From contig OY727099.1 in NCBI GenBank assembly GCA_963402885.1, positions 6,684,001 to 6,748,000 of the forward strand: a stretch of 64,000 nucleotides of DNA. The letters run 5' to 3'. This DNA comes from Antedon bifida. Its lineage: Eukaryota; Echinodermata; Crinoidea; Comatulida; Antedonidae. Every line of letters starts with the position of its first letter. The first letter of the stretch is position 1. A program made the translations under genes and the position numbers. This document shows positions 1-51,598 of this stretch, piece by piece. The notes beneath the pieces were generated by a model, which was not told where the DNA came from, made no database searches, and worked only from the letters and a program-made list of their open reading frames with translations.

Positions 1-314
1 AAGATAAACACAATTTTAAAGGAGAAAGCAAAACGTATGAAGAAACTCAAACCAATCTGAAGATATTCATTCAAACTCAAAATAGAAAGTGTATTAAATA
101 TGTATTTGTTATGAAATTAAATTTAGAGAAAAACACATTAAGTAATTGTAAACACATTTTAAAAGAAAGCACAATGAACTGTTAACATCATTCAATAAAT
201 AATGTTGATGAATTGAGTGTGTATTAAATGTTATTATTATCTGACGTCACTGTTGTTTCCGAGTGTGATATATCAATCGTAACATTACGGTACGATTACT
301 GAATTTAAAACTAC

Positions 315-523
315 TGGGCGCCGTCCAACACATATACATATTCTATCCTAAGTAACTATAGTTTTCTATTAAACAAGTCAAAGATTTGCCGTTTTATATA
401 GAAAAACAAACTATGGAATTATTATCAAAAGAAATCCATGATTTGGAAAAGACAAACATGGTTTAACTTTCATCGATGCTTTTATTTTATTGGAGGACAG
501 AATAATTTGTCGGACGGCGCCCC
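315..523. mobile_element. Small TIR element GGGCGCCGTCC
   Basis: TGGGCGCCGTCCAACA on the left and GTCGGACGGCGCCCC on the right form inverted ends. A lone matching end (GGGGGCGCCGTCCAAAA) occurs at 30817-30833. Confidence 0.6.
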
Positions 524-11033: not shown

Positions 11034-11156
11034 TCATGAAGGATTTGATGAGAATTTGGAACAGATTCGATAGTCCAAACGAATTGATTTCAATGGAAAA
11101 CTGGCAAACCGTGAGTTGGAATTCAACTGTTGTTGTTTTATCAATTCAGTCCAGTA
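11034..11156 (-). CDS. SMCR8: SMCR8 coding exon 19 (terminal)
   Basis: 40 codons plus TGA (11034-11036), starting in phase 0 after ttttctttag. Begins YWTELIKQQQL and includes PLKSIRLDYR, matching the vertebrate C-terminus (YLAELLKLHY, MLRFDYVPSF). ATTAAA hexamers on the minus strand occur within about 100 bp downstream, but the real 3' end is not determined. Confidence 0.88.
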   Translation of the reverse strand, partial: YWTELIKQQQLNSNSRFASFPLKSIRLDYRICSKFSSNPS

Positions 11157-14100: not shown

Positions 14101-17100
14101 TATATTAAAACATGTTTTTCTCACCATAATGATGTGGGAATCTGCATCCGTAATTCCTAATCTGGCCAGAAATGAGTTAATCGTACTCTTCTCCTCTGCT
14201 GAATTCATAAAATGTTCATTGCTGCCAAAAAAAAAAGTCAATATTATAGTACTAACGAGAGATAAATGTGCCACCATAAAAGATGATTACTAAAAAGAAA
14301 ATCTCATTTCTGAATAATGCTTTATATAAGCTAAAGATAGGAAGTTTCAAAAACAAGAATTATCAACATAATCTTCACTTTAGCTTCAGAGTTTTTTTAT
14401 GATACGTTTACATGCATACTAAAAAATATTGTAAAAAATAAAGCGAAGAAGTTCAAAATTGTCTAACTAAATACTTAACAAAAAAAAGAAAGCACTCAGA
14501 AACTGAGTGAAGTACTTGGCAAAATCTCATTTCTGAATAATGTTTTATATAATTAAGCTAAAGATAGGAAGTTTCAAAAACATTTATGATACGTTTAACT
14601 TGCACACTAAAAAAATATTTTAAAAAATAAAGCCAACAGAAATTGTCCCATCGAAGCAAAGAATGTGAGCCATAACGCATCACATTTTAACCATGCATGC
14701 AATGGGGTAGTCTTGGACCAAATGTTTCAAAGCAAAAAGATAACTTTTTGGAACGTATGGCATTTCATACGTTAAAACTAGCTCACAATCACGTTTTTCC
14801 AGAAAAAAATCGAACCGGCAACTGAACAGGGCAAGACTAGCAACAGAGTTTGATTTTTACGAAAGAGGAACTTCTCCATTAAATTGTGGAATATAAGGTT
14901 AAAGTTACCATATTCTAAATGCTGTACTTTCAAGAATACTAATACTATTTTTAACACAAGTGTATAACATAAGTTATTATCGTCCCTTGTACAAAAGTTA
15001 CTTGGACGTGAAAATAGTGTACAAAAATGATTAATGTGATGTGGGATAGAGCCTTATTCTGTAACCTTTTTAGAGTGTGACCTAGATCTAAAGTACCTGC
15101 TGGGCCTATTTACACAAACTAATGTGTAATGTTAGATGTATCCCAATATAACATCAGAAATGTGCTTACAGTGTAAACATCTTTTATAAAAGCATCAAAG
15201 AAGATCTCATGTCATAAAGTGTAATGGATAATAAATTTGAATGGATAATAAAATTAACTATTTCAAAATGCAGTGGACCAGATGTTGCAACATACTTGTT
15301 ATCTTTGTCTCTAGTGCCGGTGCCACCAAACTCATATCATTAGTTCATGGACAGAGCTGACATAGACCAGTACACCGAGTAACCTCTTACTTTTTCGAAA
15401 GATGCCCTGTATTTGGATTATGCGTTCACAACATATTCGTGAGGCATCAAATCTCAATAATTAAGTTTAACAAAATCCTAAAATCACACTTTTTCACAAT
15501 ATTGCTTAACTGAGCCATTTAATTTTAGTAATTTGTAATGCGCCTTGGCATTTTTTGATAATTTTGAATTAAAGATGCACTGGGTTTTTGAAAATTGCAC
15601 ATGGGTCGGATATGTATACTGAATCGAGCTGTAAGTCCTCATCCGAGAAGATTCGTTCTACCATTAAACTATGGTCAAGGAAAGTCTTGAACCTGTGACA
15701 ATTTTATGACTATTATGGTTTGCAACGCTCCTTAACCACTCGACTATTCGACACGACTCTACATAAACCTTAGAAAACCTCTTAAAATATAAAGTAATTG
15801 CTTTCTGCATCTACAGTATTATTTCACTCCTTTCAAAGTGTATTATTCAATAGCAATGATTGCGATTAAAACATCTTGTTAATTTCCATTTTTTACAGAT
15901 GAGAAAGGTTAGATACATTGCATGTGAATTGAAACACACAATTTGTTTTCATTATATTGTACCAGAACACATTCAAAGATAACATCAATTTCACACTCGA
16001 TAACGGTAACAATTTATGGCAATGGCAACAATGGTTCAGGGGAAATTAAACTTTTCTTTTTCCAGTAGCATATATTATAATGCTATTATAATAGTTCAGT
16101 ATACTGACTTTTTTTCAAATGGTCAACACGCCCTTATTTGGCCAAATCATAAACAACCGCAACTTTTAATTAGGTTCAACAGAAACACACTGTAGCTACT
16201 GTATGTGGTATACTAGGTTCGATTTGACATTGGGTATTCCTTCTGGTCAGATATATTGACCATCTCCACCAAATTAGCCTATACATCTCATAAGAAAACA
16301 CTAGGACATGATCATTTAAGACACATACTACACACTATATTTATGATTAATTGTCCTCTATTTCAAATGATATCCTACTGTACCCCCAACTTTAACTGCT
16401 GTGATCATCTATCTCTTATATAGTCACGTGCCATAATACCATCCGCGGCCTTCACCTTCCGCCATACATCTTACATTGTTATTTTTCCTTGAAATGCGTG
16501 ATAAATACAGATGAATCTTAATAATGATTGTGTTCTATGATAGTACCGACACTAAAGAAGGGTGACATGAAAAAAATATGTAAGAAACGACCGTATCAAT
16601 TGTCAGATGGACACGTTTATGGTTTTTAATGTTTAAAAAACGCATTCATGTGTATGTTCATTGGTGGTTGAACACACAAGGGAAATTATAAAGATACGAA
16701 ATTTAATGACTAAAGCCTTCTGTAGAATGTTATAGACAAAATGGGAATAGTTTGTGATGAACAATGTCAGGCACACTCTATTATCTTGGAAAGCTAGTGC
16801 TGATTTCTCAATGGTATTAAAACAGAAGTTGACAAGACCCGCGTATACTGTAATCCCATGACTAAGTATAATCCCATGCTCGATTATAATCCCATGTTTG
16901 AGTATAATCCTATGCTCGAGTATAATCCCATGCTCAAGTATAATCCCATGTTCGAGTATAATCCCACACCCAATCCCACACAAGAATTCAATATTAATCA
17001 ATCAATCGTTCGATTAATCCTACTATAATTCCATACCAGCCTAATCTTCACACAATTTCATAACCAATTCCCCTTGTCCATATACGGTACTAGTTAGGGA

Positions 17101-20100
17101 GTTTGTAAGCACAAGTTTGACGATGCCTCATTTCAACTGATTTTCAACAGGTGAAAAATAGTTACTACCAACCTTCTATTTGACAATGGCCAACATGGAC
17201 ATTCTTACTAAATCAAAATAGTTACAGAAGGTAAGATGTCTGCTACGGTAGAACAACTCCTTTGACACACGCCTATTCAAGAGACACCTCTATTAAGGAA
17301 CACTTTCCCATGAAAATAACAAGGGTAAATATATGTTTTGACATTAAGATCAACCTCTACAAAGGGGACAACGACGTTTGTTTTGCCCCGACACGTAACA
17401 GCATTCTTCATAAAAACATTTATTGACATTAAGTAATGAACTGTATTGACATTTTCACCATTTAAATGACAACTTTCCATGAGTGAATATTGTTTTAATA
17501 TTTACAAAAATTATTATTACTTCTCATTAGTTACACCATGTTTTTATGACATTTTTATTTCTTAAAAAGATGTTGTTATAATAACAATCATATCACCCAC
17601 ACAATGAGATTGACTTATAAATGCGTTACTATGATCTATTTGATTATTTTATCAACATGGTATTTAAAATGTTGCGGATGATGGAATATAACAAATTTAG
17701 ACTGCATATAAAGGTGTTTGGCTAATTGTGGACAGTGCTGACATTCATTTGTATATGACCCCACAATTTGTTTGTACATAATATTGATAAAAGATCGTTG
17801 CAGTTGCAGTTGTATTTTATTGCATGGCCCATAAGGGAATAACAACTATGAGTTCATATGGGCCTCCGAGTTAAATAAAATTGAAATAATTACATTTTTT
17901 TGGAAAATGTTATCGTTTTGTGAATTGAAATTTTAAAGTCTTATATTTCTATCTGAAATACACTGTTTTAAAAAATTAGGAATTTTTATTTTTTTCTATC
18001 TAGCTTCTTCCGACAGACTTGTCCAATGATGGACCTCTATTTTGCTCTGACCTGCATACTTGTCTCTTATTTATAGTGATATTATTTAGTTATGTAATTA
18101 TTTTATATAAGAAAAAATATTTTTGATTTGTAAAATAAACCTATTATAAATGACAGAAATATTAATACCAAATCACTTCCAAAAAATGTTAATTGAAAAT
18201 ATAAAAATCGGCTTAAAAATATTAGTAGATTTCAATTCCCACTTCACTGAGTGTAAAAACCCTATTCAGAAGTAATAGACTCTGTTACTAGGCAACTATA
18301 AACAGATTAAAATGTTGTTATGACTTGTATACTCAACAATTGATTTGAAAAAGAAGTGCAATGTATATGATAACATTCAGCATGAAGTACAATAAATGCG
18401 TTTTAAATATATGAATATTAATATAATTTTAGATAAAATGAAAACAAATCAAATACTATACAAGGAGATGATAAACTTGATTGAACTGTTGGATAATCAA
18501 TAAGCCTACTAACTTATGAAAGTCGCCTATACGGCGTACTATAGCCGGATATAAAATCTTAAGTGACTGAACTACATCAGGGAACACAAGTGGAGATGGG
18601 CAAGCTAAGATTTGGACGACAACATTATGTCAGCGTAGAACATGGAAAAGGCAGACAAAGAAGAGACTTGTCTCCAAACTGTCATAAAATAAATAAAAAA
18701 TATTAAAAATGGACATATGACAATGATGTTAGAACAACATATTTTGGCTTTCAAAAATTGGCAAGGAAAAACAAACCGGAAGATATAAAAACATGAAGAA
18801 ATCTCCTGTACATATCAACTGACAACTGGAACAGTCGTATAATCCTACAATTAGTTGTCAAGAGCCACTATTTTGTACTGATAGAGACTATTATATATGG
18901 CATAAATTTACATCTCTATATAATAATCAATGTGTCTTGTATAGCTCTCATTGCTGGGCTTAACACGCAATACAATTGCATTGGACTGTTTACTGTACTA
19001 TACCTTAAATGCCCACAGCCAGGGGTTCATACAAACCCATTTTGAACTATTGTCTATCAATGGTAAATAGGCCAGTATGATGATGTATGTTTTGCCAATT
19101 CTCTACATTACCAGCAGTCAAATTTCATATACATGATCTACAGTATGTCGATAGTGGTATGCCTAAAGCTCCGTCTACACTATCAAACTGTATGTCACAA
19201 AAAAAAATGTGATGTGCCCATATGGACATGATGTCATATCACTACCATATTTGGGCATATCACTAACATATTTGGTCACATCACACTTGGTTTGTCAAAT
19301 TAGTTTGATAGTGTAGACAGAGCTTTATTCTTACTTAGACTTTTTAGGCGAAAAAAGAATACATCTGTAACAATCTAATTTTTTACCTTTGTTTAGAGTT
19401 ATGGTCAGCTAGGCAGTATGCATGATAAAAGAGAAAAGCCTTAGAAGACATCTCAAGAAATACAGACTGGATGTAGGCTAAAAAACTAACATCACTCCGA
19501 AGAAGCCTACATTGAGCCACTAAGGTTTGAAGATAGTTTCCCTGAAATAAAAACAAAACTTTTTTTACACTTGTTAAAGACAAATTTTTTTTTTCAAAAC
19601 TTTTAAACAATACAACTTAATTTACATACATAAATATTCATAAGCAACAATTTGCATAGCCTACCTTATATGATGGTGTATACATCACTTGCTTATCAAA
19701 ATCAAATATGGAAACATAGTTCCTAACGACGCCTGGAATGACACGATGTAGAGAACCTTCTTTGGCTAAACCGACAAGTTTTAATCTACCTACATCTGCT
19801 ATCGTTATAGGCTTTGTGTACCATGGAATAATCTGCGAATGACTGAAAGAAGAAGAAACAGTCAAATTAAATTAAGTGCTCAGAGGCTGAGTAAAATGCT
19901 TGGCTAATGCAGAGAGTGACCAGTGGTGTAACGCAGAGGACTGAGGCCGCTGGTTTAGGAACTCTAAAAGTGCTGGAGGCATCCGGTGTTCTCAACATAT
20001 CTTAAACCTGTTGTTTCCTCTGGGCCCTGCTTAGGGACCAATAAGCTCCAGGGCCCCTGGGTTTAGCCAATGAGCGCTTTATACCTGTTACAACACTGAG

Positions 20101-23100: not shown

Positions 23101-26100
23101 TTTATTACCTTACTAAGCTCGTCGTCTTATTTTGACGGCACATAATTTGGTTAAGAATAACAACATTTCAAAATAAAAAGGAAATATTGTTCACATAGTT
23201 ATAAAAACAACAGTTGGTTGGTCAGACATTTTGCCCCTAGTGTGACATAAAATATACATGATACATTAAGAACTAATTAATAAAAGAAGTAAACAAATGG
23301 GTCAGAGAACAAAGTCAGAAAAATGTACAAATGGGGGTGCATTTTTTAGCCCCCTTCTTTGTGGCTCTAGGGGCCACATGCAGTATCAATATCTGAATGT
23401 GTTATGTTTCATATACAACTGTTCCCATACTCAGATATTGGTTTGACCAAAATGCTATGGGTGGCCGATCTAGTGGGCAGGACATCTAGGAAGAATGCAC
23501 GATGGTACAATAGACACAATTGACAATGGAGTGGCAACATTTATGGACCTCATTCAAGATGGAGGGATGAGCTCGTCAGACAGCATGGCCAAGATTATCG
23601 AAAGACAGCAACAACTGGCACCAGTGGGAGTGGCCTTTGCCCAGAAGTGGGATGATATGGGCTTAAGAAGAAGAAGTAATTTTCTCAATTTTTTTCATAT
23701 TTTTCCATACAATCTAGAACAAATTAAACATACCTGGAATGGCCTGGTATAAACACACACAATGCTGTTATCAAATGCTTAATTTCTCTGAAATAAAAAA
23801 GTAAAATTGACTTTATCTACATTTTCAGTGAATTGTTAGGAGCGTGGTTGAGCAAGTGCTCAAATTGCCTCTATGTAATCTTTTTTTTTTTTAAATAAAT
23901 GGCATACAATCAAATATTCATTAAATTATATATTTTATAATTATGTCATGTTTTATTCTAGGCAGTACACAGTTTTTTAAACTTTTTTTATATTTATTTC
24001 GGTATAAAAAACATATATATACAAAAAGCAGCAGAAGCTGAAAGTATTGCATTTACATAAAAACTGTATAAAAAGTACACAAAAACATCAAAACATTAAC
24101 ATATGAAATATATCAATACATTAAGTAATAAAAATTTATACAAAAAACATTAAAACACGAAATAGTCAATATTTGTTAACAATAATAATTGTTCAAAATT
24201 AATAAAACGTGATGTCCTTACTTTTGGTGCTTTAGATGCCCTGTGATGATTACCGTTCGCCCAGAAAATAAGGCATAAATTAGATGTATTGCAAATGAAT
24301 ATTGATTCAGAATTTTCCTTAATTTACAACCTAAAATAAAGAAAATAAAATTCACTTTAAAGATATATTGTCACCTTGAGAAAATAATTTAAAAACATTT
24401 TTTGTTGAATATGCTATTTTAATGTCACATAATAGTTATTCACTTTGATCAAAAATTTGATTGGAAAACAATTATTTACCTGAAAAAAAAAATGTATTTT
24501 AAAGAAAAAAGTGCATTTGACTGTTTATATTGTCATTTTATAAGTGAACACATAATTTTATTTTCTATGATAGTGACTAACTACAAAATGGCCTAACCAA
24601 GTCTGTACATCTTTAATATTAACTATCACCGTATATATCCTCTGGTATAACCCCAACCCCTAGAACATGAAATTGGGTTGACTTTGGGGTTGTACTATAC
24701 CCGGGGATATGCCTGTTTGTGAAAACATATAGTAGGTAAATTTTCACAAAAAAAGTGTGATGCGCCCATAGTGATATGCTTAAATATGGTAGTGATATGA
24801 CGTCATCATGTCCATATGGGCACATCACAATTTTGAATAAAGTTTGATAGTGTAGACAGAGCTTTAAATTGTTATACTGTACTGTGACAAATCGTATTGC
24901 ACTTAGTATGAACTGAACATTAAATGACTGCGCACTTAAGTGTGATGTGCCCAAATATGGTAGTGACATGCTTAAATATGGTAGTGATATGACATCATCA
25001 TGTCCATATATGTGAACATCACATTTTTTGTCACATAGAGTTTGATAGTGTAGACAGAGCTTAATACTCGGTGCTGTTTAACTGTTATACGTCACAAATC
25101 ATATTACATTATTGCACTTAGTTTGAACTGAACATTAAATGACTGCGCACTTAAGTGTGATGTGCCCAAATATGGTAGTGACATGCTTAAATAAGGTAGT
25201 AATATGACATCATCATGTCCATATATGGGCACATCACATTTGTTTTGTCACATAAAGTTTGATAGTGTAGACAGAGCTTAAATGTTAAATGTTAAATTGT
25301 TATACTGTCAAAAATCGTATTACATTACTGCACTTAGTTTGAACTGAACATTAAATGATTGCACACTTAACCGGAAACAATCATAATTCTCAATAAGCTT
25401 TTACTGTTCATAAAAACAATTCAAAGAAAATACATTTAAGATTAATCTTTAAATGTATCTATTTTATTAATATATACCGAGTCAAGATTAAGTTAAAACA
25501 TAATTTAACTCTAACCTGAAGATATTATAGTTTTATAAAACACTTGTTGGAATATTTTCAAGGAAAATTAAAATATTTTATGAGTCTGCGGAAAATCCTA
25601 TTAACTGATAGAAAATCTTACACAGAAGATCAAATGCTTAAAACTATAGAATTAAAGTCTCCTTGTAAAAAAAATTCCCAGAAATACAACTATAAAATTC
25701 TATTAAATAATGGAAAATCGAGTATGGAGCAAATTACATCAGTTTAATTTACTCATTACTATAAAAATAAAAGACGTCAACTAATTTAAAGTAATTTAAC
25801 ACTTAACAAAACATGCCAACTACAGATCTCAATATTCCAAGAACGACTGTAGTCAAAAACCATAAAATGAATATGTTTAATTTCAAAGATATATTGTAAT
25901 TTGACATTCAAATCAAATTATTCAGCACTTCTTAAAATATTCTTATATGAATGAGATGCATCATTAGTAAGGTTGTATTGAGATGAAATCAAATTTGCCT
26001 TTAAAATATTTCTAGGTAATTTTATGCTGCTAACAAGGTTTTTTTAGCATACTGTAGCTTCCATGTGCTGTTTTAATAAACATCTCCTACACTTAACTTT

Positions 26101-38100: not shown

Positions 38101-41100
38101 CTACAAAATGGCCTATTCAAAATTTGATTGTATTAATCTTCATTTTTCATGTTTTTGGTAGACAATACATCTTTAACTTTAAAACTCCAATTACGGAAAT
38201 GGATGAAAAGGTCGTAAAGTAAGTGTCATGGTTTATACATACGTTGAGAGGATAATTCCATAATCTCTACCCAATCTTCATTGAAATCTGAAGAGGCATC
38301 GCTGGAACTGTCTCTGATTGATGGAATATCTGAAGCATCATAGTATAGAGATCTGAAATGAAACATTTAAAGAGATTACATTTAGGAAAAAACTGAAACA
38401 AGTTGTCAGATGATATATCTGAAATAAATTGAAGTATACAGATCTGGAATGAAATGTTTTAACAGATTGAATAAAACAAAACATCTTCCTAACCAAACTT
38501 TTCTTTTGAGTGATGGAATAAATATATAATGTATATTTCTATAAAACACCATGTGCTATCCAGTGTTAGTTTTAATGCATGGTATAAAGTTCTATGTAAT
38601 GGTTCAATTAAGGCCAGACAGCATTGTACGACCAACCGCCTCATCGGGAGAAAATTAAACATGTTGAAAGTTCTTCCGATGACCTAAATTCTACGCTCGA
38701 CGCTTTTCAATTTTATTTGTTGGTTGATTAAAATAATTAGGTTTAAAAAAGACTGTCTAATTTCTTTGTAGTATGGACATTCTAAAATAGCCTGGGTGCA
38801 GAACAGTTAATATACACATTTGCGGGAAAAAAGTATAGGAAAATTTTTTTTTGGTTTTTCTGATAGAGTATACCATATAGAATGTCAGCAAAAAAATCCC
38901 CATCGGAAAATTTTTTACGGCACTTTTAAATTTTGGCCTATATAACACACACAAATTCCTATTAACACACACAAATACCTATATATAGGGGATAGGGAAA
39001 ACCAATTCACGTTTTTTTTAACTTGGAGTTGTGTTATGATGATTAAAATTAGCTGAGGCTTACTTTAATAACTACTTATCATAGTAGTTGATAAATCAAG
39101 TCGATACGATGACATCATCATGCCAGAATCCAATATGGCGTCCAATTTGGCGGAAAAATAGGGTATTGCTAAACCCCGCAAACCCCCACAAACCTCCAAA
39201 AAAATAAAGCAAACCCCACCGAACCAACATAAAAGTGATTGAATCATGAAGTGTACAACCCACTGGGTATATAAAATATTAAATTTCTACTGTTAACTAC
39301 TTATTTTGGGGATAAAACATCATTTTTTGGTTAAAAATTAGAAATCATTTTTTACCAAAAAATGATGTTTTACCCCAAAAATAAGTAGTTAACAGTAGAA
39401 ATTTAATTTTTTTTTTACATGGATATACCCAGTGGGTTGTACACTACATGATTCAATCACTTTTATGTTGGTTCGGTGGGGTTTGCTATGTTTTTTTTTA
39501 GGTTTGCGGGGGTTTGCGGGAAGTTAGCAATACCCAGTTTTTCCCGCCAAATTGGACGCCATATTGGATTCTGGCATGATGATGTCATTGTTATCGACTC
39601 GATTTATCAACTACTATGATAAGTAGTTATTAAAGTAAGCCTCAGCTAATTTTAATCATCATAACACAACTCCAAGTTAAAAAAAACGTGAATTGGTTTT
39701 CCCTATCCCCTATATATAGGTATTTGTGTGTGTTAATAGGAATTTGTGTGTGTTATATAGGCCAAAATTTAAAAGTGCCGTAAAAAATTTTCCCCAAGAC
39801 TCTGGGATGGGGATTTTTTTTCTGACATTCTATATGGTATACGCTATCAGAAAAACCTAAAAAAAAATTTCCTATACTTTTTTCCCGCTAAATTTGTACT
39901 GCACCCAGGCTAAAACACAATGATATTCATTTTCAACCTCATTGCATTTGCAAATTTTACAGATTCTTTTAAAATTCCTGTCCATCTTTCCTTTTCGTTT
40001 TCAAGATTTAAAATTCCTAATCTTAACTTAGTTACGATTAGTTCAAAGTTTTGAATATCAATATGAAAATCTTTTAATTTAAAAATGAGAGAGATATGAA
40101 AACAGGTTGGTATCCAACAAGTATAATTTTTTCTTAAATATATTGGAAATTGTCTGTATGTGGATTATCATGTTATTGTCATCCTAAAAGTAGAGCAAAT
40201 TGCTATCCTTGGAAGACTGGATACCAAACACATTAGAATAGATTGTCTCTCTACTTCCATTTCATTTAATCGGCAAAATAGAAAAAAAGCCAGAGATATG
40301 TCTACTGATTAAATTAGGCCTACTTTTTATGATTACACAAATTTAGAGCATTCTTCCCCATTTGTCATTTTTACCAATCATGCAAATGCTTTCTTATCAC
40401 CAACAACAATGTTCAATTAAAGTAAAAACATCCATAGCATGCGGCATTAAACAATATAGATCCTCCAAATGATGTTAAACAATCTCAACAATTTAAATTG
40501 TGTTCATGTTGTTTGCATATAAGAAGCCAATTATTCTATATTCTGAATTAGCCATTACTACGAATGGAAGCCTAAAGCTCTGTCTAAACTATCAAACTTT
40601 ATGTGACAGAAAAATGTGATTTGCCCATATATGTATGATGATGTCATATCACTACCATATTTGGGCATATCACACTTTTTTTGTCAAACTACTTAGATAG
40701 TGTACTGAGTATGACAAGGAAGGGGAGACATTAACAGTCTGTTAAAAAATAGATACAGTAGATATCAAAAAGCAGTTCATAATTTCATTTTAGCTGTTAA
40801 AAAGGGGGTGTGGCTGGTGGGAGGGGACGAGCCAAACACCCTACACTCCCCCCCCCCCCCCAAGATCCAGAAACAGTAGAGAACAATGAAAGTAGAAACA
40901 TGAGTTTTACTTATTACATATGTTAATAATTAGAAATTAAAGGTACTGAAACCAAAATGAATAGATTGGCTTACTCTGTTGATGCAAAGTCAGACCCAGT
41001 AATAAATTTTGCTTCAAAACTAGAAGGTAAAAACGAATAAACATCTTCGTCGTCTGTCAATGGTCCGCCCGTATTAGTACTAGAACATGTCATAAGCTAA

Positions 41101-44100: not shown

Positions 44101-47100
44101 ATTTGATTCTATTTCTTAAAGTTTTTTTAATTATCATTTTTAGCTATAAATCATTTGTTTACCGTCCCTATGGTGATAACGAAAAAAATTTGTAAACAAT
44201 ATGTGAAAATGATGGCATTTTCTTTACTGTGAATCTACGCTCTTGATCCACCAAGGAGCAAAAGTGGGTACCGTATAAGAACGAATGTTTTTTTGTTCAC
44301 CATATTTAATGAGAGTGATCCCTCCAGCAATTGCTGATCATTAGGGACCCTCAGTGCTTCACAAGACAAACATATACACAAGATGCTCTACATAAACGTA
44401 TTACAAGTCTTTGGGAGTGGAGTTGGAAATTTATCCTTAGAAAAAATCCTGACATGTGACAGGACTTGAACCCAGGACACTTGCCAAGCATCATAACCAC
44501 CAAGCCACAACTCCACTCCACAATAGAACCTCTCCTTTGGAACACCCATATCAAGGAAATGCCTATTAAATGAACACTTTCCTATGAAATGACTATATAT
44601 GGCCAACACCTCTTTATGGACCTTTAAGGAGACTTTGTATAGACCAACATGTGTTTCCTAAATAAGGTTTTTCTGTAGTCAGTAAATAAGAATAAAACAT
44701 GCATATGATTAATAGAAATGTTAAACTTTACTTACACATAATTTTCTGGTATAAAATTAACAGTAACCGTCCTGCCAATTGTGAGGAGGGACGAGGCAGG
44801 CTTCACTATATTGGACTCCATTTTTTCCATAGACAATGCTTCACTTCTTCGACTGAAATGCTATTATACAAACAAATGAATGTTTATGAGTGCGATGGTA
44901 CAAATAATTTCACAATCTTTAGTTTAATACATTCTAATACTATACAAACATACAGTACTATACGTAAGTATCTATTTTTCAACCAATTGCCAAAAAACAT
45001 TATTGTGAGACATCCAATTCTGCTCTATAAAACTATGTATATTTTTTTTAACTAATATTCAATCTATTGCACAGACCTATTAGGTAGTTTTAGTTGTCTA
45101 TACACATGAATTTACTGTGATTCTAACTTTCATTTATAGTACAAGGGATTGATCATTATTTCTTGATTCATTATTGTGAGACATCCAATTCTGCTCTATA
45201 AAACTATGTATATTTTTTTTAACTAATATTCAATCTATTGCACAGACCTATTAGGTAGTTTTAGTTGTCTATACACATGAATTTACTGTGATTCTAACTT
45301 TCATTTATAGTACAAGGGATTGATCATTATTTCTTGATTCATTATTGTGAGACATCCAATTCTGCTCTATAAAACTATGTATATTTTTTTAAAGTAATAT
45401 TCAATCTATTGCTCAGACCTATTGGGTAGTTTTAGTTGTCTATACACATGAATTTACTGTGATTCTAACTTTCATTTATAGTACAAGGGACTTGATCATT
45501 ATTTCTTGATTCATTATTGTGAGACATCCAATTCTGCTCTATAAAACTATGTATATTTTTTTAAAGTAATATTCAATCTATTGCTCAGACCTATTGGGTA
45601 GTTTTAGTTGTCTATACACATGAATTTACTGTGATTCTAACTTTCATTTATAGTACAAGGGACTTGATCATTATTTCTGCTTTTAATATTGAGAGTGCTT
45701 TGGACAGCATGTGAACAATCTATATTTTGTTCAAGCATGCTACTTCATTAGTTTCACAATGACATTTTTCAAAGCTTCACTTGATAGAGGGCAACATACA
45801 ATTAATGTTGGCTAGACTATAGTAATAATATCAATATCAAACAAGCAAAAAAAAAATCTGATCAATGTTGTGGTGGTAGTAGTAGGCAGGCAAAACACCA
45901 CATACTGTACAGTATATTTAATTGATCTAATTTCTCTGGAAAAGGAAATGTTCACCTAACCTTTACCAGTGATAAAAATCACACAAAATTGTAAATAGGA
46001 TTTTATATAAAAGTAGCAGATAGTTTTATTTTTAGGCTATTAGGTCTGTGCCTACATACTTTATTATTAGTCATGCCAAATAAAATGAATGAAATACTTA
46101 ATACACTATTTACCTTGTAGAACCTCTTAAGCTTTGACATGGCAATTTTAGCACCCCATAGGCAAAGTTCTTGTAGAGAGCGTAGATTAACATCGAACTT
46201 GCGATAACCATCAACTTTAATTAATTTGGGCTGATAACTGGCTTCATGGCCACTATCAAGTATCTCATTAGATTGACCTATTTCATTAAAAAAAAAATAT
46301 GTTTGATAACTATATTATACAAATAATGAATAATTATGAGATGGTATACATAATTTCAAGAGGTGAAAGATGAAAGGTTATACCGTATTTATTTGAATAA
46401 ACACTCCAGGGTGTTTATTGTTCAGAAGGGTTTTTAAAGGGGGGGGGGGGGCATTTATTCAGCCATATGGCACCTGATTGAGCTGTCCACAAGCCCATAC
46501 CAGATTTGGTCGTGTACCGCGGCGTGACGCTTCACCTGCACACAATCCCAGTATACCTTCGTTATGAGTTGCCAAGGGATCAATTCACCAAGTACCAAGG
46601 GATAATGGTCTAGTAAAGGCATCACCCCATGAAAAGCAAATTTATCTTGTGTCCAATGGCAACTAAAAAAGAATCAACAACCATCAATTTCATAAGAATG
46701 CGATCTCTAGTGAGATTTATAATTCAATCAACCACTGATCTATTTTAGTCTAAATTGTAAAAAAGCATCTTTCTTTTTTTGCTAATAGAAAATAAAAATT
46801 GAAAGACTCTAGAGATGTTGAATTAGCATTAATTAAAATCTGTTCAACTACCCGCTCATTTGTTTATGAAATTCTACTAGTATGTATCATTTATATAAAT
46901 CTTAATAACAAGCTTGAAAAAAACAATTTTGACAAAATTGTCAAAAAATATTTATTTAAATAAATTTGAAGCCTGTAATCTAGTTGTGTAGTTTAAATTT
47001 GAAGACTGTACATCTAGTAGTGTTCTTTAAAAGACATATTTTAGGAGAATTCTCAATTAGAATTCTTAGCAAAAATCCTAGTTCTTTAATCTTATTAAAG

Positions 47101-50100
47101 TACATACGACTATAAACATTAATACTAATACTATATGGCAGAATTAGGCATTGGGAATGATGGATGATAGAATATACCAAACAACATGTGGGAAGGAAAC
47201 AGTTAACATCAAAAACATTTCAAAAAGCACTTTGAAAATACGTAATACGCCTCTGGGGAAGTCAACGCTTACGTAGTTACTGATTGTTCAAAGATCAAGT
47301 ACGTATATGACATTCGCATGACTTTTAAACCAAATTTGCTTTCTTTTCAAATATTTTTCTAAACTCAACAAAGATATTTATTTATATTCACTCAATATGA
47401 ATATTTTGAAATTGTTTATTTTGTTTAAAAGGTTGAAAACACAATAGGTCTTCATAAACATATTTTTCATGATACTACAGTAGGCACATGTATAATAACA
47501 TACTACATTAGTACTATTCAGGGGTCACCCCATCACCCCTCATCTATTCAGGGGACACCCATCCTCTATTCCAAGGACACTCCTCTTCTATACAGGGGAC
47601 ACTCTTCTATTCAGAGGATACACCTCTTCTATTCAGGGGACACTCTTCTATTCAGGGGATACCCCTCTTCTATTCAGGGGATACCCCTCTTCTATTCAGG
47701 GGACACCCTCCAATATTCAGGGGAAACACCTCCTCTATTCAGGGGTCACTCCTCCTCTATTCAAGGGACACCCCTCCTCTATTCAGGGGACACTCCTCTT
47801 CTATATAGGGGACACCCCTTCTATATTCAAGGGACACCCCTCCTATATTCAGGTGATACCCCTCCTCTATTCAGGGGACACCCCTCCTCTATTCAGGGGA
47901 TACCCCTATTCAGGGGACACCCCTATTATGGGGAAAATATCCTGTGAACAAGGGGCAATATATGTTTAAAACCTATTACAGCTCATATTCATGGCAGACT
48001 CTTAATATACATACACTTTCTTATGGAAAATCCTTTTTCCATTTCACTACCCTCACTATGGTAACCATCGCCATGTAAACTAGCAGATTGTGAATGAACT
48101 CGTTGCCGTCGGTGATTTTCTGAAGCATCCATTTTCTTGAAACGTCTTTCTAATCGCTTGTTGACCTTGAGAGGAATCGGAGCAAAGTGTAAACAAATGT
48201 ACAGTTAAATGTTAATAAATAAGATGTACGGTCTTTATTGTCAAAATGAAAAATTCTAGTACGTCAATGCAGATAAATTGCAACATTTTAAAATCAATTC
48301 CACTTTGTCTGTCTGTTGAATTTGAAATTGATTTATCATTTTTTTTATAAGTAAACCTAGAATGATGTAATCACAATAGAAAGGCAGCATTCGTTCAAAA
48401 TTTCCAAGTTCCAATTAGTAAGATTTGATTAGAGAGAAACTTTAAAAGACACAATTTCAATACAGAGAACACAACTTTATTTTGGCGACAGGGAGGAGGG
48501 TAGGCAATTTCAAATTTAGAGCATTAGCTGTCCCTCCATACTCTTCTAAATATGGGTGTTACTTTATGTGTGCAGACAATCTCTGATCAGGGGAGCATTA
48601 CATACTGGACTCCACAGGCTGAAGTCTCTGGAAAAAATGCATTTATGGTGTTCTAGGAGATCATTAATGCACTCCGATTCGATCATCTGTAAAAGGGTCT
48701 TTCACACTTGTTCCGGCACGGTTTTGTTTTGGCATATCGATTGGTGCATACCCGCATGGAGCATCGTGAAAAATTGATGTTTGATTTGCCGGCGCCAACA
48801 ATAAAACAGGCTGACAATACCCAGTTTTTAAAAACTTATTGTTTGTTTTTTTTTTTTTTTTTTTGTATAAATGTTTTTTCGTGTGTTGAGGACGGGGACA
48901 CAGGCCCCTTTGACCCTCCTTTGAGTCTGCACATCCTGATATGAATCATTTACAATGACAATAATTTTTTCCAACCATGTACACTCTAGTTGTGTAATCA
49001 ACCTCGAATCAGCAACTTTGAGTTTTAATACTTTTAATATTTAGGATACAAGTAATTATATACTATATCATTCCCTCACCTTCAATGTACTAAATTGATT
49101 TAAAATCTGTGTTGTTTCACCAATGGCCTTTTCCAATTCCTCCATAACTCGTGTGTAACTTGTCTTCGTTTTAATATCATCTACAGTCTCACTTGTAGCC
49201 ATGTATTGCAGTTTTGAAACATGATTTTCTATATAAAAAAATAGACATCTAATTTGAAATAATTGTGTTAAGCTCTGTCTACACTACCAAACTAGATTGA
49301 CAAAAAAAAGTGTGATGTGCCCAAATATGGTAGTGATATGCCCAAATATGGTAGTGATATGACATCATCATGTCAATATATGGGCACATCACATTTTTTT
49401 GTCACATAAAGTTGATAGTGTAGCATTGATGATATCTCCCATTGAGACATTCATAGAATGCAAGGTTTACCAATGAATTTTTTCCGGTTATTAATTTATC
49501 TACAGTATTTTATTTTTGCTGGTATCTATGTGGCTATTGATATATTGCTTGTTACCCACTGGCTATTTACCCACTGGCTATTTACCCACTGGCTATTTAC
49601 CCACTGGCTATTTACCCACTGGCTATTTACCCTCTGGCTATTTACAAGCCCATATACTTGTTTTTTTTTATATATTCCAGCATTATTACAAATGATAACA
49701 ATAAACAAATTCATTCCCTGTCACCTTAGGGTATGTTCAGATCCATGGAGTTATGCTTTTGTATTGCAAGCAATGTCATATTATAATTAGCGTCGTAACA
49801 GCAATGTGTTCAGAACGCTTTCGTTTGAAACTGAAGTGTCACCAATTTGGGCTAACATCTGGTATGCAGGATTAAATTTGATTGGTTAGAGGTTAAAATC
49901 GTAAAAGACATATGGAGTTGTACGATACGAAAGCATAACTCCAGGTCTGAACAGGCCCTTAGACAAATATATGCACAAGATGGAGTCACTTGGTGATTTA
50001 TTGAGTTACCTTTAGTGAAAGCTAAATCTTTTAGTTTTCTTTTCAAATCCTCACAAAAGTTGCGACTGTTTCCATATTTGAAAGCTTCAGTGACTTTCTT

Positions 50101-51598
50101 GAACTTATTTATGATTTTATCAAAATGTACCACAAGTTTACTAAACAAGAGAAACAAAAATAGGATGATTATTTATTTAGATTTAAAATAAACCCAAAAC
50201 TACTCCACTTCTTAAAGGCCAATTTACACACACCGGTAACGGTAAGCGGAAATGCGCATCTTTACTGAGCATCTCCGTAGATCAGTGTTTTGTGTAAATG
50301 GTCATAAGAAATAACATACATTCTATATTATTGTTTTCCGCTTACAGTTACCGCTCGTCTGTGTAAATTGGCCTTAAGCCTACAATGAGACTAGTATAGT
50401 TTATTCATGCTATAATAGCCAAGTAAACTTACTGATAAACAAGAATTAGGCAATAGTTCTTAAAATAAGTGAGAATTCTTACTTTTTTTCTGATGTGATA
50501 TAAGCTAAACAAAAAGGTCTGACAAAGCCTCGGGCATGAATGTCATAAAGAGTAAAGTGATGAACCTAAAAAGAAATAAACATTTTAATTTATTTATTGC
50601 ACGTCTTCATAACACAAGAAAGGATAAAGAAGATATTATTCAAAATTTAATAGATTCAATATAAACATAAAACTATTCACTTACATAAGCATGAGCACCC
50701 TCACTCAGTTCCTCCTGGAGAAGACACGTGTCATCGTAAATTGTGAACACGCCGTTTGCTGCACGAGATGAATTAGTGGCGTTGTAATCAACAGACATGA
50801 TGTTGACAGCAAACTGTTCTTTGTCAAAATCACCCCCACCATCAGATGGAATAGTAATCTACAGTAATATAATAATGATGATTAGAATTGTGAACAACTT
50901 ATTTTGCCATAACACATAGGAGGGGGTATACTGGTGGTCAGTAGCATGACGGCTATGAGAACTCACAGGCCAAACCCAGGGGTCACAGCGCTTATGGGGG
51001 TGCCAGAGCTTATGAGGGGCCCAGGGCTTATGGGTGTGCCAGGGCTTATGAGGGGCCCAGGGCTTATGGGTGTGCCAGGGCTTATGAGGGGCCCAGGGCT
51101 TATGGGGGTGCCAGGGCTTATGGGTGTGCCAGGGCTTATGAGGGGCCCAGGGCTTATGGGTGTGCCAGGGCTTATGGGGATCCTTAAGCAGGGACCGCAG
51201 GAATAAAAAAAGAATAAAAAAGGCATAAAATATGTCAAAAAGGCTAATAATTTCTGAGATCTTCAGGCCTCTGCATTACACCACTGATCCTGGTGTACTG
51301 TTCATATACTACTTCTACTACTAACTAGTCATATAGAGGGCACATGTCATGTGTGGCAAATCAAAAGTCCCCTATTGATAATGGCCATTTATTATATACT
51401 ACCTACCAATGGATTAGGACCTTCAATTTCACAAAACTCAGAAATCATGATGAAATCATTTTCAAAGTTAGGCGAGATGGGCCATGGGTTTGGGGGTGTG
51501 AAAACCGGTAGGAGGTCTGCAGGTATATGGCTGTTCTCGGTATCATCGACATCATTCAGCATCTGGTCATCGCTTACTGAATAGCCTGCAGCAAACAT
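11034..51598 (-). CDS. SMCR8: SMCR8 homologue (longin/DENN protein), 19 placed coding exons over 40.6 kb
   Basis: Known role: SMCR8 binds C9orf72 and WDR41; the complex acts as a GTPase-activating factor for small GTPases and regulates autophagy and lysosomal mTORC1 signalling. Seen: coding exons (minus strand) at 51598-51407, 50858-50685, 50565-50483, 50140-50010, 49228-49080, 48165-48015, 46277-46114, 44852-44736, 42646-42610, 41096-40975, 38352-38243, 33356-33099, 28347-28228, 24330-24222, 20992-20948, 19842-19665, 19541-19387, 14221-14125, 11156-11034. The longin-type start (FIMISEFCEIEGPNPL), the ARGFVRPFC motif, the SYQPKLIKV segment, and the C-terminal DENN segments (LIYALFSGRTVII, GRLKLVGL, SSKAFLFYHAYC, YWTELIK) follow the order of vertebrate SMCR8. 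Reading phases agree at every junction except 46114 to 44852, which needs one more exon. About 838 codons are placed. The acidic, Ser-rich centre (exons 10-12) is a poorly conserved linker. Family call is firm; exact ends of weakly conserved exons are less so. Confidence 0.93.
12243..12668. repeat. 21-bp minisatellite, about 20 copies
   Basis: Unit ACATATGTAGTTACTGCAGT plus A, with frequent C/A variation (ACTGCAGT or ACTACAGT). Lies in the last SMCR8 intron. The 21-bp period keeps a repetitive frame open, which is not a gene. Confidence 0.92.
13280..13670. repeat. Threefold repeat of a 68-bp block
   Basis: The block with TTTTCATTTCTAGGTATATT and AAATTGTGAAAATT occurs at about 13283, 13405 and 13598. 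Larger flanks (GACTAGACCATCCTAAAATG-like) are also duplicated from about 13180. SMCR8 intron 18. Confidence 0.75.
14125..14221 (-). CDS. SMCR8: SMCR8 coding exon 18
   Basis: 97 nt, phase 2 to 0. Encodes SAEEKSTINSFLARLGITDA followed by DSHIIM, matching the vertebrate helix QMSFLKLTLGLVNEDVRV. Acceptor tttttggcag and donor GTGAGA. Confidence 0.9.
14493..14526. repeat. AGCACTCAGAAACTGAGTG repeat, copy 1 of 3
   Basis: AGCACTCAGAAACTGAGTGA then AGTACTTGGCAAAAT, itself partly palindromic (CTCAG-CTGAG). Related copies at about 19874-19905 and 55735-55766. Confidence 0.5.
15580..15775 (-). mobile_element. tRNA-derived SINE
   Basis: Minus strand: box A TAGTCGAGTGGTTAAGG (15746-15730) and box B GGTTCAAGACT (15693-15683), then a body with CTCGGATGAGGACTTACAGC and AACCCAGTGCATCTTTAA. 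SMCR8 intron 17. Confidence 0.7.
16848..16968. repeat. Short minisatellite ATAATCCCATGCTCGAGT
   Basis: About seven copies of an 18-bp unit. SMCR8 intron 17. Confidence 0.85.
18575..18680 (+). pseudogene. Possible second LINE remnant
   Basis: Plus-strand translation gives REHKWRWAS followed by a stop, then WTTTLCQRRTWKRQTKKR in a shifted frame, reminiscent of the KWRWAGHIAR and RW segments that precede RWRDEL in LINE ORF2. Short and degenerate. SMCR8 intron 17. Confidence 0.3.
19164..19327. mobile_element. MITE family 1, copy 3
   Basis: Complete copy with TA ends, 60 bp downstream (minus strand) of the donor of SMCR8 exon 17. Confidence 0.85.
19387..19541 (-). CDS. SMCR8: SMCR8 coding exon 17
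   Basis: 155 nt, phase 0 to 2. Encodes FLAYIQSVFLEMSSKAFLFY and HAYCLADHN, matching vertebrate YYLHVQSMLTQLCSKAFLY. Donor GTAAAA. Confidence 0.95.
19665..19842 (-). CDS. SMCR8: SMCR8 coding exon 16
   Basis: 178 nt; the first base completes a codon, and the exon ends in phase 0. Encodes PWYTKPITIADVGRLKLVGL and NYVSIFDFDKQVMYTPSYK, a clear match to the vertebrate DENN segment with WKLIGLQR and YTSILDLDNK. Acceptor ttcttctttcag. Confidence 0.95.
20159..20318. mobile_element. MITE family 1, copy 4
   Basis: Both terminal repeats are present, the right one with substitutions. SMCR8 intron 15. Confidence 0.8.
20948..20992 (-). CDS. SMCR8: SMCR8 coding exon 15 (45-nt microexon)
   Basis: 15 codons, phase 2 to 2: EYNIEQFLSPLTGY. 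It fills the gap between SGRT (exon 14) and the PWYTKPITI block (exon 16) that vertebrates fill with a helix plus a short loop. Acceptor acacacag, donor GTAATT. Confidence 0.78.
   Translation of the reverse strand, partial: GIQYRTILVASDRI
22424..22579. mobile_element. MITE family 4
   Basis: Imperfect terminal repeats of about 32 bp: left GCTTGGATCACACTAGGATG, right complement GCTTGGTTCCCATTAGAACG; both then share CAxCAxAAGGAC. SMCR8 intron 14. Confidence 0.65.
23445..23672 (+). pseudogene. Decayed LINE endonuclease/reverse-transcriptase C-terminus
   Basis: Three plus-strand frames must be combined to recover the family pattern: SRWRDELVRQHG, then WPRLSKDSNNWHQ, then GVAFAQKWDDMGL. The order RWRDEL, RLxxDxxxW, GxAFxQxW is typical of non-LTR retrotransposon ORF2 tails. 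Frameshifts mark it as dead. SMCR8 intron 14. Confidence 0.55.
24222..24330 (-). CDS. SMCR8: SMCR8 coding exon 14
   Basis: 109 nt, phase 1 to 2. Encodes LRKILNQYSFAIHLIYALFS followed by GRTVIITG, matching the vertebrate block FIRQYPFAHPAIYSLLSGRT. A MITE begins only about 27 bp beyond its acceptor side. Confidence 0.93.
24357..24616. mobile_element. MITE family 5, copy 1
   Basis: Diverged copy of the element with ends TTAAAGATGTATTGTCCCCC. Shares ATAATAGTTATTCACTTTGA and ACTACAAAATGGCCTA with the other two copies. Confidence 0.7.
24744..25371. repeat. Tandem array built from truncated family 1 MITEs
   Basis: Three truncated MITE copies (ends near 24866, 25062 and 25281) keep the right terminal repeat. 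The last two lie in a tandemly duplicated unit of about 210 bp that also includes the flank TTGAACTGAACATTAAATGA. That flank occurs three times (about 24908, 25121, 25340). The amplified unit therefore spans MITE plus neighbour DNA. Confidence 0.8.
26035..26330. repeat. Tandem repeat, about 85-bp unit
   Basis: Four diverged copies including TTTTTAGCAGCATATCC, TTGTGCTGTTTAAACATCTC and CACTTAACTTTTGGTAG. SMCR8 intron 13. Confidence 0.75.
26856..27049. mobile_element. MITE family 2, copy 2
   Basis: TAAAGGCCAATTTACACAGA on the left and its diverged complement on the right. SMCR8 intron 13. Confidence 0.75.
27198..27975. mobile_element. PIF/Harbinger-like element with 16-bp TIRs
   Basis: GGGCCTGTTTCTATTG at 27198-27213 is repeated exactly in reverse complement at 27960-27975. 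The flanking trinucleotides are TTA and ATA, close to but not a perfect TWA target duplication. The 778-bp interior holds the broken Myb/SANT-like gene and no transposase, so it is non-autonomous. It lies in SMCR8 intron 13. Confidence 0.65.
27333..27660 (-). pseudogene. Broken Myb/SANT-like (trihelix) transposon gene
   Basis: Two minus-strand frames together spell a Myb/SANT-like DNA-binding domain of the kind carried by PIF/Harbinger transposons. The first frame gives MWTDVITRFVINMWGEEK. A different frame then gives TKDHNNVLGNNDRITCPFYD, the family's hallmark end (NN.SG..RKTCPFYDELD). At least one frameshift and a shortened middle separate them, so no functional protein is made. It lies inside a terminal-inverted-repeat element (27198-27975). 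Confidence 0.65.
28228..28347 (-). CDS. SMCR8: SMCR8 coding exon 13
   Basis: 120 nt, phase 1 to 1. Ends GCYVSWLTSNSSRFPG, which aligns with vertebrate SYVSSVASTSSDRIPS just before the C-terminal DENN part. Acceptor ttctttacag and donor GTAAAT. Confidence 0.86.
28681..28839. mobile_element. MITE family 1, copy 8
   Basis: Complete copy in the opposite orientation internally. The right terminal repeat is interrupted by a short ataatattaa insertion. SMCR8 intron 12. Confidence 0.8.
30040..30360 (+). mobile_element. tRNA-derived SINE
   Basis: A tRNA-like head with box A TAGCCAAGCGGTTAAGAC (30041) and box B GGGTTTGAGGCC (30103). A tRNA-unrelated body follows (AGTGTACACAGTTTACAAGT, then ATTCGAGATGAGTAGGGAGA). 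It cannot fold as a functional tRNA. SMCR8 intron 12. Confidence 0.7.
32240..32253. repeat. Poly-G tracts
   Basis: A G run here; similar runs at about 35361-35372, 46440-46451 and 57691-57707, and a C run at 40849-40861. Such runs are assembly-sensitive and can form quadruplexes. Confidence 0.9.
33099..33356 (-). CDS. SMCR8: SMCR8 coding exon 12 (largest)
   Basis: 258 nt, phase 1 to 1. Polar linker with TMDDFILDKTQLYDSSDRD and DSLDVDSDMVHSD; aligns loosely with the vertebrate region before SYVSSVAST. Acceptor tttacag and donor GTAAGTAC. Confidence 0.85.
33535..33935. repeat. Minisatellite, about 31-36-bp unit
   Basis: About 12 copies of AAGAAGCCAATCTCAAAGAG followed by AAAGTCGTGTTAAA or AAGATCACCTAAA. 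SMCR8 intron 11, about 180 bp from the acceptor side of exon 12. Confidence 0.85.
34000..37840. other. Part of SMCR8 intron 11, no feature recognised
   Basis: AT-rich sequence with no open frame resembling a gene, no recognised transposon ends and one G run (35361). Confidence 0.45.
37846..38175. mobile_element. MITE family 5, copy 2
   Basis: Left end TTAAAGGTGTATTGTCCCCC, right end GACAATACATCTTTAA. SMCR8 intron 11, 68 bp past the donor of exon 11. Confidence 0.75.
38243..38352 (-). CDS. SMCR8: SMCR8 coding exon 11
   Basis: 110 nt, phase 2 to 1. Ser/Asp-rich linker including SIRDSSSDASSDFNEDWVEI, similar in character to the serine-rich, acidic middle of vertebrate SMCR8. Donor GTATGT. Confidence 0.83.
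38640..40080 (-). pseudogene. Non-LTR retrotransposon ORF2 C-terminal remnant, split by the palindrome
   Basis: Minus-strand translation at 39968-39911 gives RICKICKCNEVENEYHCVL and resumes at about 38786-38757 with ECPYYKEIRQ. Together this is the Cys/His knuckle typical of the C-terminus of LINE reverse transcriptases. Upstream sequence to about 40080 is frameshifted and carries stops. Dead element. Confidence 0.6.
38789..39911. mobile_element. 1.1-kb near-perfect palindrome (foldback element)
   Basis: The left arm starts AGCCTGGGTGCAG and the right arm ends CTGCACCCAGGCT. Arms of about 540 bp are nearly identical in reverse complement and meet around 39350 at a small AT-rich loop. There is no coding capacity. 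It interrupts a LINE remnant whose reading frame resumes on the other side, with a probable 5-bp TTTTA (minus strand) target duplication. SMCR8 intron 10. Confidence 0.85.
40573..40709. mobile_element. MITE family 1, copy 9 (decayed right end)
   Basis: Intact left terminal repeat; the right end (ACTTAGATAGTGTA) is degraded. SMCR8 intron 10, near exon 10. Confidence 0.75.
40975..41096 (-). CDS. SMCR8: SMCR8 coding exon 10
   Basis: 122 nt, phase 0 to 2. Acidic linker sequence with GGPLTDDEDVYSFLPSSFEA. Good acceptor (ctatttttag) and donor GTAAGC. Confidence 0.82.
41236..41418. mobile_element. MITE family 1, copy 10
   Basis: Diverged ends; the interior carries three instead of two copies of the ATATTTGGGCATATCAC block. 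About 140 bp from the acceptor side of SMCR8 exon 10. Confidence 0.75.
42185..42590. mobile_element. MITE family 3, 406-bp foldback copy
   Basis: Starts TAAAGGCCCATTTACACTAG and ends with the complement. The arms of about 200 bp pair along their length, each with an AATGACGTCAT-like site. The terminal sequence is close to family 2. SMCR8 intron 9. Confidence 0.8.
42610..42646 (-). CDS. SMCR8: SMCR8 coding exon 9 (37-nt microexon)
   Basis: Encodes VCKTCNVDDRIS after one codon-completing base. The donor GTAAGTATT is near perfect, and the exon joins phase 2 of exon 8 to phase 0 of exon 10. There is no obvious vertebrate match, so support rests on splice sites and phase. Confidence 0.7.
42770..42871. 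mobile_element. MITE family 3, half copy
   Basis: One arm only: CCTATAGTTATAGAACGAAA through GTGTAAATGGGCCTTA. It lies about 125 bp from the acceptor side of exon 9, in intron 8. Confidence 0.7.
43304..43424. repeat. Long hairpin (47-bp arms)
   Basis: GTGTAATGTTACAAATAATT on the left pairs with AATGGTACAAAT-type sequence on the right, and TGATGAAAGGTTATA with its exact complement. A loop of about 27 bp contains GAGGCAAAGCCGAG. Partial copies occur near 44870-44912 and 46306-46381. Confidence 0.7.
44360..44520 (-). mobile_element. tRNA-derived SINE
   Basis: Minus strand: TGTGGCTTGGTGGTTATGAT (box A) and CCTGGGTTCAAGTCCTG (box B). Lies about 220 bp past the donor of SMCR8 exon 8. Confidence 0.6.
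44736..44852 (-). CDS. SMCR8: SMCR8 coding exon 8
   Basis: 117 nt; the first base completes a codon (phase 2) and the exon ends in phase 2. Encodes RRSEALSMEKMESN and PASSLLTIGRTVTV, similar in position to the vertebrate segment containing PKVLISVGSY. Acceptor catttcag and donor GTAAGT are good. The upstream exon it needs has not been firmly placed. Confidence 0.72.
45001..45676. repeat. Four tandem 171-bp units
   Basis: Units begin TATTGTGAGACATCCAATTC at 45001, 45172, 45343 and 45515 and are nearly identical, so the duplication is recent. It lies in the interval where one SMCR8 exon is missing; the tentative exon 44954-45024 would use a splice site inside the lowest unit. Confidence 0.9.
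46114..46277 (-). CDS. SMCR8: SMCR8 coding exon 7
   Basis: 164 nt, phase 1 to 0. Encodes SYQPKLIKVDGYRKFDVNL followed by SLQELC, a clear match to the vertebrate block YTPKLIKAKS and ELC. Donor GTAAAT follows 46114. Confidence 0.92.
47515..47935. repeat. Minisatellite CTCTATTCAGGGGACACCC
   Basis: About 19 copies of a roughly 22-bp unit, CCTCTATTCAGGGGACACCC with small changes. SMCR8 intron 6, 80 bp past the donor of exon 6. Confidence 0.9.
48015..48165 (-). CDS. SMCR8: SMCR8 coding exon 6
   Basis: 151 nt, phase 0 to 1. Begins VNKRLERRFKKMD and continues into a polar Ser/His/Gly linker. Sequence conservation is low, but both neighbours match in phase. The donor chosen is GTATGT after 48015, which gives phase 1 as exon 7 requires. 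Confidence 0.82.
49080..49228 (-). CDS. SMCR8: SMCR8 coding exon 5
   Basis: 149 nt, phase 1 to 0. Encodes an amphipathic helical segment (VMEELEKAIGETTQILNQF) in the position of the vertebrate helix that follows the KLKDL block. Donor GTGAGG. Confidence 0.88.
49269..49424. mobile_element. MITE family 1, copy 11
   Basis: Left repeat AAGCTCTGTCTACACTACCA; the right end is truncated after GATAGTGTAG. About 40 bp beyond the acceptor side of SMCR8 exon 5. Confidence 0.8.
49553..49645. repeat. 15-bp tandem repeat
   Basis: Six copies of TTACCCACTGGCTAT. SMCR8 intron 4. Confidence 0.9.
50010..50140 (-). CDS. SMCR8: SMCR8 coding exon 4
   Basis: 131 nt, phase 2 to 1. Encodes helical sequence ending FCEDLKRKLKDLAFTK, matching the vertebrate stretch with the core KKLKDLDYT. 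Acceptor after a pyrimidine-rich tract ending in tttag; donor GTAACT. Confidence 0.92.
50213..50376. mobile_element. MITE family 2, copy 3
   Basis: Complete copy between SMCR8 exons 3 and 4, starting TAAAGGCCAATTTACACACA and ending GTGTAAATTGGCCTTA. Confidence 0.8.
50483..50565 (-). CDS. SMCR8: SMCR8 coding exon 3 (arginine-finger exon)
   Basis: 83 nt, phase 0 to 2. Encodes VHHFTLYDIHARGFVRPFCL, nearly identical to the vertebrate block. Arg134 in ARGF aligns with the arginine finger proposed for SMCR8 and with the LARGF arginine of folliculin. Donor GTAAGA follows 50483. Confidence 0.95.
50685..50858 (-). CDS. SMCR8: SMCR8 coding exon 2
   Basis: 58 codons, phase 0 at both ends (residues 65-122). 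It carries FAVNIMSVDYNAT and EELSEGAHAY, matching the SMCR8 longin-domain blocks around MSVDYQA and EGAFAY. Acceptor AG at 50859-50860 and donor GTAAGT at 50679-50684. Confidence 0.93.
50985..51182. repeat. 18-bp GC-rich minisatellite
   Basis: Eleven copies of GGGCTTATGGGTGTGCCA or GGGCTTATGAGGGGCCCA. The multiple-of-three period opens reading frames on both strands that are not genes. SMCR8 intron 1. Confidence 0.92.

Follow-up and report, generated by a model that had tools for sequence, protein, structure and literature searches.

The window analysed here, a stretch of 64,000 nucleotides (64 kb) from Antedon bifida, carries on its minus strand a homologue of SMCR8 running from an ATG at 51598 to a stop codon at 11034. 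Judged from the sequence, this is very probably a functional SMCR8 orthologue without a detected second copy, divided among 16-17 or more small coding exons. It is a real, apparently intact and already known gene, and its layout is rich in introns. Spliced reconstruction gave 17 coding exons with a combined length of 2328 nt including the stop codon, encoding 775 amino acids with no internal stops (Table 1). All 16 introns have GT-AG borders, and the phases are compatible at every junction (six introns in phase 0, five in phase 1 and five in phase 2). Exons have a median length of 123 nt, the longest being exon 10 at 258 nt or 86 codons, and introns range from 119 to 5165 nt. An in-frame TAA lies upstream, close to the ATG, and position 11034 is the final base of the TGA.

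Several claims of an earlier note on this DNA bear on the model. The two end coordinates that it gave proved exact, corresponding to the first base of the ATG and the last base of the TGA, and its description of GT-AG borders with compatible phases holds for 16 of 16 introns. The strand, which it did not mention, is minus. Its count of at least 19 coding exons was not reproduced, as 17 are supported, one of them tentatively. The statement that no open frame exceeds about 86 codons is correct for the SMCR8 exons but not for the region, where open frames of 118 amino acids that are not SMCR8 exons occur at 27812-28168 and 44699-45055. Among the frames listed for the plus strand across 10-53 kb, nothing was recognisable as SMCR8.

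Table 1. Coding exons of the Antedon bifida SMCR8 model (window coordinates).
Exon	Position	Strand	Residues	Region	Support and remarks
1	51407..51598	-	1-64	longin start	ATG 51598-51596; tblastn match NPWPISPNFENDFIMISEFCEIEGPNPL; in-frame TAA upstream
2	50685..50858	-	65-122	longin	tblastn and borders
3	50483..50565	-	123-149	longin	Arg134 codon 50532-50530; 70% identity to human SMCR8 probe
4	50010..50140	-	150-193	longin end	tblastn and borders
5	49080..49228	-	194-243		acceptor at 49228
6	48057..48165	-	244-279	linker	phase 0->1 as required; acceptor weak by leave-out model
7	46114..46277	-	280-334	conserved YQPKLIK...LQELC block	tblastn and borders
8	40975..41096	-	335-374		tentative; phase 0->2 fits
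9	38243..38352	-	375-411	Ser/Asp-rich linker	model search against simulations
10	33099..33356	-	412-497	Ser/Asp-rich linker	spliced alignment
11	28228..28347	-	498-537	linker end	strong splice sites; little homology of its own
12	24222..24330	-	538-573	DENN start	tblastn match KILNQYSFAIHLIYALFSGRTVIITG
13	23734..23787	-	574-591	DENN	borders
14	19665..19842	-	592-651	DENN	uncut at mouse intron site (about codon 785); tblastn and borders
15	19387..19541	-	652-702	DENN	SKAFL block aligned to human SMCR8 PDB sequence
16	14125..14221	-	703-735	DENN	borders
17	11034..11156	-	736-775	DENN end	stop TGA 11036-11034; alignment with human SMCR8 reaches residue 929

A human SMCR8 probe compared with the window by tblastn produced seven matches at E <=0.008. 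Every one of them lies on the minus strand, and their order follows that of the probe, starting at 51490 and ending at 19665; beyond these, the best match had an E of 1.3. When the joined 775-amino-acid protein was searched against PDB chain sequences, human SMCR8 (6lt0_B) was recovered at E 7.8e-67. The alignment has two parts, which span human residues 41-326 and 692-929 and represent the longin and DENN domains. This bears out the order of blocks from longin start to DENN end described in the earlier note. At E up to 10 the same search yielded SMCR8, an SMCR8 fusion construct and CHMP2A (E 0.64, chance level), with no folliculin chain among the matches, in agreement with the original assignment to SMCR8 rather than folliculin. 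The extreme C-terminus, SKFSSNPS, sits past the aligned part (human residue 929) and is unlike the end of the human protein.

That the locus is instead folliculin or another longin/DENN relative is extremely improbable. The Pfam profile PF11704, named Folliculin, does match the joined protein (31.8 bits against a cut-off of 23.3, 1.6e-7), but it does not separate the two families because the domain is common to folliculin and SMCR8. In a six-frame search of the genome the same profile found exon 3 of the window weakly and under the cut-off (17.2 bits, E 0.645). Moreover, a separate folliculin gene is present on contig C9, where an exon matches human folliculin at E 4.8e-50. Together with the PDB search, in which SMCR8 was found and folliculin was not, this already largely refutes a folliculin identity for the locus. 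The PF11704 search of the joined protein and the own-genome search were performed with an earlier 759-amino-acid model in which two junction residues (after exons 8 and 9) were incorrect, while the PDB search used the corrected 775-amino-acid protein.

In order to look for further copies, the joined protein (759-amino-acid model) was compared with the genome (315.6 Mb, 27 contigs). All 17 matches at E up to 10 fell within the SMCR8 locus; thus no second or intronless copy was detected in this search, which scores the best candidates only. A decayed or partly assembled pseudogene would account for short exons spread across 40 kb, for the tandem arrays that several introns hold and for the one tentative exon, yet it is a highly improbable description of a locus with 775 codons free of stops and frameshifts, canonical borders at 16 of 16 introns, a conserved catalytic arginine and no further copy found in the genome.

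The exons were built by spliced alignment, inspection of borders and a gap search with a splice-site and codon model, for which 14 exons and, in one run, 17 served as the training set. Fourteen core exons are based on homology or strong borders. The first spliced alignment proposed 21 exons, of which seven were dropped. Those at 47922, 44387, 42688, 38791, 38418 and 36621 each had at least one weak border, and the one at 38418 also overlaps the accepted exon 9 in a different frame; the seventh, 27905-27840, was removed, since the phases of exons 11 and 12 already match when it is left out. For exon 5, an acceptor at 49180 was replaced by the better-scoring one at 49228.

Exons 6 and 9 were evaluated under a looser filter against simulated introns matched in length and phase demand. 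The score of exon 6 (13.5) was reached by none of 200 simulated introns, although by a thin margin (maximum 13.0), and that of exon 9 (18.9) was likewise reached by none of 200 (maximum 14.5). In the stricter-filter candidate list exon 9 scored 20.7 and exon 8 10.7, and exon 6 was missing since its acceptor fell below the filter. The best opposite-strand control reached 13.2, above exon 8, which was not the top candidate in its gap. Exon 10 was the best-scoring candidate in the region, though its codons belonged to the training set. The best gene-strand candidate off the core exons and outside the model scored 11.4, and another, overlapping exon 1, scored 14.7. Sixteen exons are therefore well supported, comprising the 14 core exons and exons 6 and 9, which exceeded the simulations; exon 8 is tentative, as it fits in phase but not in score.

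One exon may be hidden in intron 7, because the human sequence after residue ~346 has no clear counterpart in the 775-amino-acid model. A search for further exons in the gap between exons 7 and 8 gave two candidates, neither of which was accepted: the top one in phase 0->0, whose score was reached in 10 of 200 simulations, and, for the exon 8 slot, the top one in phase 0->2 (44657-44392), whose score was reached in 4 of 200. Intron 7 contains, at 44998-45678, four copies of a 171-bp unit that are 99% matching, which represent either a tandem duplication of very recent origin or an artefact of assembly.

Other repeats are found in and around the gene. Long minisatellite arrays occupy SMCR8 introns at 12245-12670, 33516-33923, 47534-47907 and 50986-51179, another lies at 6234-7125, and several minisatellite arrays yield artificial repetitive open frames. 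Short tandem arrays of a unit of 20-22 bp, similar to CATATCACTACCATATTTGGG or to its complement, were observed at 990, 5579, 19235, 20226, 41315, 49312 and 53382, and this unit probably forms the core of some dispersed repeat. Outside the gene, a single-frame protein of 383 amino acids with immunoglobulin domains is encoded on the minus strand at 59130-60281 (PF13927, 4e-7, 30.9 against a cut-off of 30); a signal peptide, a transmembrane stretch and a tyrosine-bearing tail were recognised by eye. Across the whole window, no Rfam family was matched at the gathering threshold and a tRNA scan gave no matches. Elsewhere in the assembly, the mitochondrial contig (15844 bp, C27) carries COX1, to which inspection by eye added COX2 on the same strand and ND1 and ND2 on the opposite one. 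Against its top PDB chain COX1 scored 894.7 bits with genetic code 9, 881.8 with code 4 and 866.9 with code 5; mitochondrial code 9 is that of echinoderms and flatworms, and the COX1 protein itself looked echinoderm-like, both in keeping with an echinoderm source.

The predicted protein resembles human SMCR8 (PDB 6lt0_B, 6v4u and 7mge) in how its longin and DENN blocks are ordered and in possessing an arginine finger. A low-complexity linker rich in Ser, Asp and Glu separates the two domains in exons 9-10, as a Ser/Asp-rich linker does in the human protein, and a long linker of this kind is characteristic of the SMCR8 family. The linker is shorter here than in human, and the protein has 775 amino acids compared with 937. 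The Antedon gene also differs in its 16 or more coding exons and in lacking, within the model, the human stretch after ~346 mentioned above.

Within block LYDIHARGFVRPFC of exon 3, Arg134 aligns with Arg147 of human SMCR8 in the PDB sequence alignment. Human Arg147 is described as the catalytic finger toward ARF1 in the complex (PMC8213707). Since Arg134 aligns with this catalytic residue, we infer that SMCR8 together with C9orf72 has the same GTPase-activating role as the human complex. A C9orf72 gene is present on contig C11, with two matches to PF15019 and one exon matching human C9orf72 at E 4.6e-17. Transcription of the gene would begin at about 51.6 kb (or upstream) and end at about 11 kb, and the introns spliced out would presumably be ordinary spliceosomal ones; the protein would pair with C9orf72 (and WDR41) on lysosomes, and its longin domain would supply Arg134 to the active site of a small GTPase of the ARF type, as happens in the human complex. 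The contrast with mammalian SMCR8 would then reflect a different intron history with function unchanged.

To compare intron layouts, junctions of the model were placed on the human protein, where they fall at residues equivalent to 72, 135, 162, 206, 287, 346, 690, 740, 758, 823, 874 and 903, in addition to those in the linker. Mouse Smcr8, whose coding sequence is orthologous as judged via human SMCR8 homology, is described as a gene of two exons, the first of which encodes 84% of the 935-amino-acid protein (PMC6075033). As far as that description goes, it agrees with the statement in the earlier note that mammalian SMCR8 is coded in very few exons, and it places the mouse intron near codon 785, a position derived from this percentage and from a 785-amino-acid short isoform and not from an exact border (PMC6075033). 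The mouse intron point aligns within exon 14 of the Antedon gene, between the junctions equivalent to human residues 758 and 823. The sole mouse intron, so placed, thus matches none of the 16 Antedon junctions.

Folliculin allowed a second comparison, as its longin domain is related (PF11704; PDB 6ulg_L and the gene on contig C9) and carries an arginine in the same ARGF motif. In the Antedon genome folliculin is a separate locus, in which the homologous stretch is one uninterrupted exon. Its longin region (human residues 133-263) lies in a single exon at C9:15239053-15239460, which is free of stops over 408 nt and covers positions 30-165 of the PF11704 profile. The SMCR8 longin junctions after residues 122, 149 and 193 lie within profile positions 47-116, a stretch that the folliculin exon spans uncut, so none of the three introns is common to both genes. 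The mismatch with the mouse intron and the lack of sharing with folliculin both point to different layouts; neither decides between the alternatives that the earlier note fairly posed, loss of old introns in vertebrates or gain in this lineage.

Loss of introns toward mammals from an intron-rich ancestor is the commoner history, and such ancestors are frequent among animals. We consider it probable that the many SMCR8 introns are ancestral and that the derived form is the two-exon gene of mammals, which could have arisen, for instance, when an mRNA-derived copy took the place of the older gene. Consistent with this, no junction among the 16 coincides with the mouse intron (about codon 785); those at human 758 and 823 come closest. 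Against it, the comparison of SMCR8 genes spans two lineages, and none of the three longin junctions is common with folliculin of the same genome. The latter result speaks for introns gained mostly in the Antedon lineage; the matching folliculin exon is open over 408 nt. Such gain is nevertheless unlikely, as the split between folliculin and SMCR8 is ancient, folliculin may itself have lost introns, and, as a matter of general knowledge, more than a dozen gains in one gene would be unusual.

Retention of ancestral introns could be combined with a more specific course of events, in which the mammalian gene arose as an mRNA-derived, intron-free replacement that later acquired one new intron where the older gene had none, while invertebrates such as Antedon kept the split original. 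This course is rather unlikely. Relevant to it, the mouse intron lies at none of the 16 junctions and the alignment is variable in length exactly at the mouse intron point, where the human protein has a six-residue insertion relative to the Antedon protein. A literature search on SMCR8 intron evolution found nothing pairing 'SMCR8' with 'intron loss' and nothing on the subject among the titles and abstracts listed, although a publication may still exist.

The interest of the locus is modest, resting on the exon layout relative to mammals; the gene is otherwise ordinary. SMCR8 is, furthermore, the partner of C9orf72, the commonest ALS/FTD gene. The occurrence of SMCR8 with its arginine finger and of C9orf72 in one genome agrees with ancient DENN proteins, those of this group being held to be old in the account of PMC3521125. 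The 16 intron positions and phases of the Antedon gene provide a reference for dating intron loss (or gain) in SMCR8 across animals.
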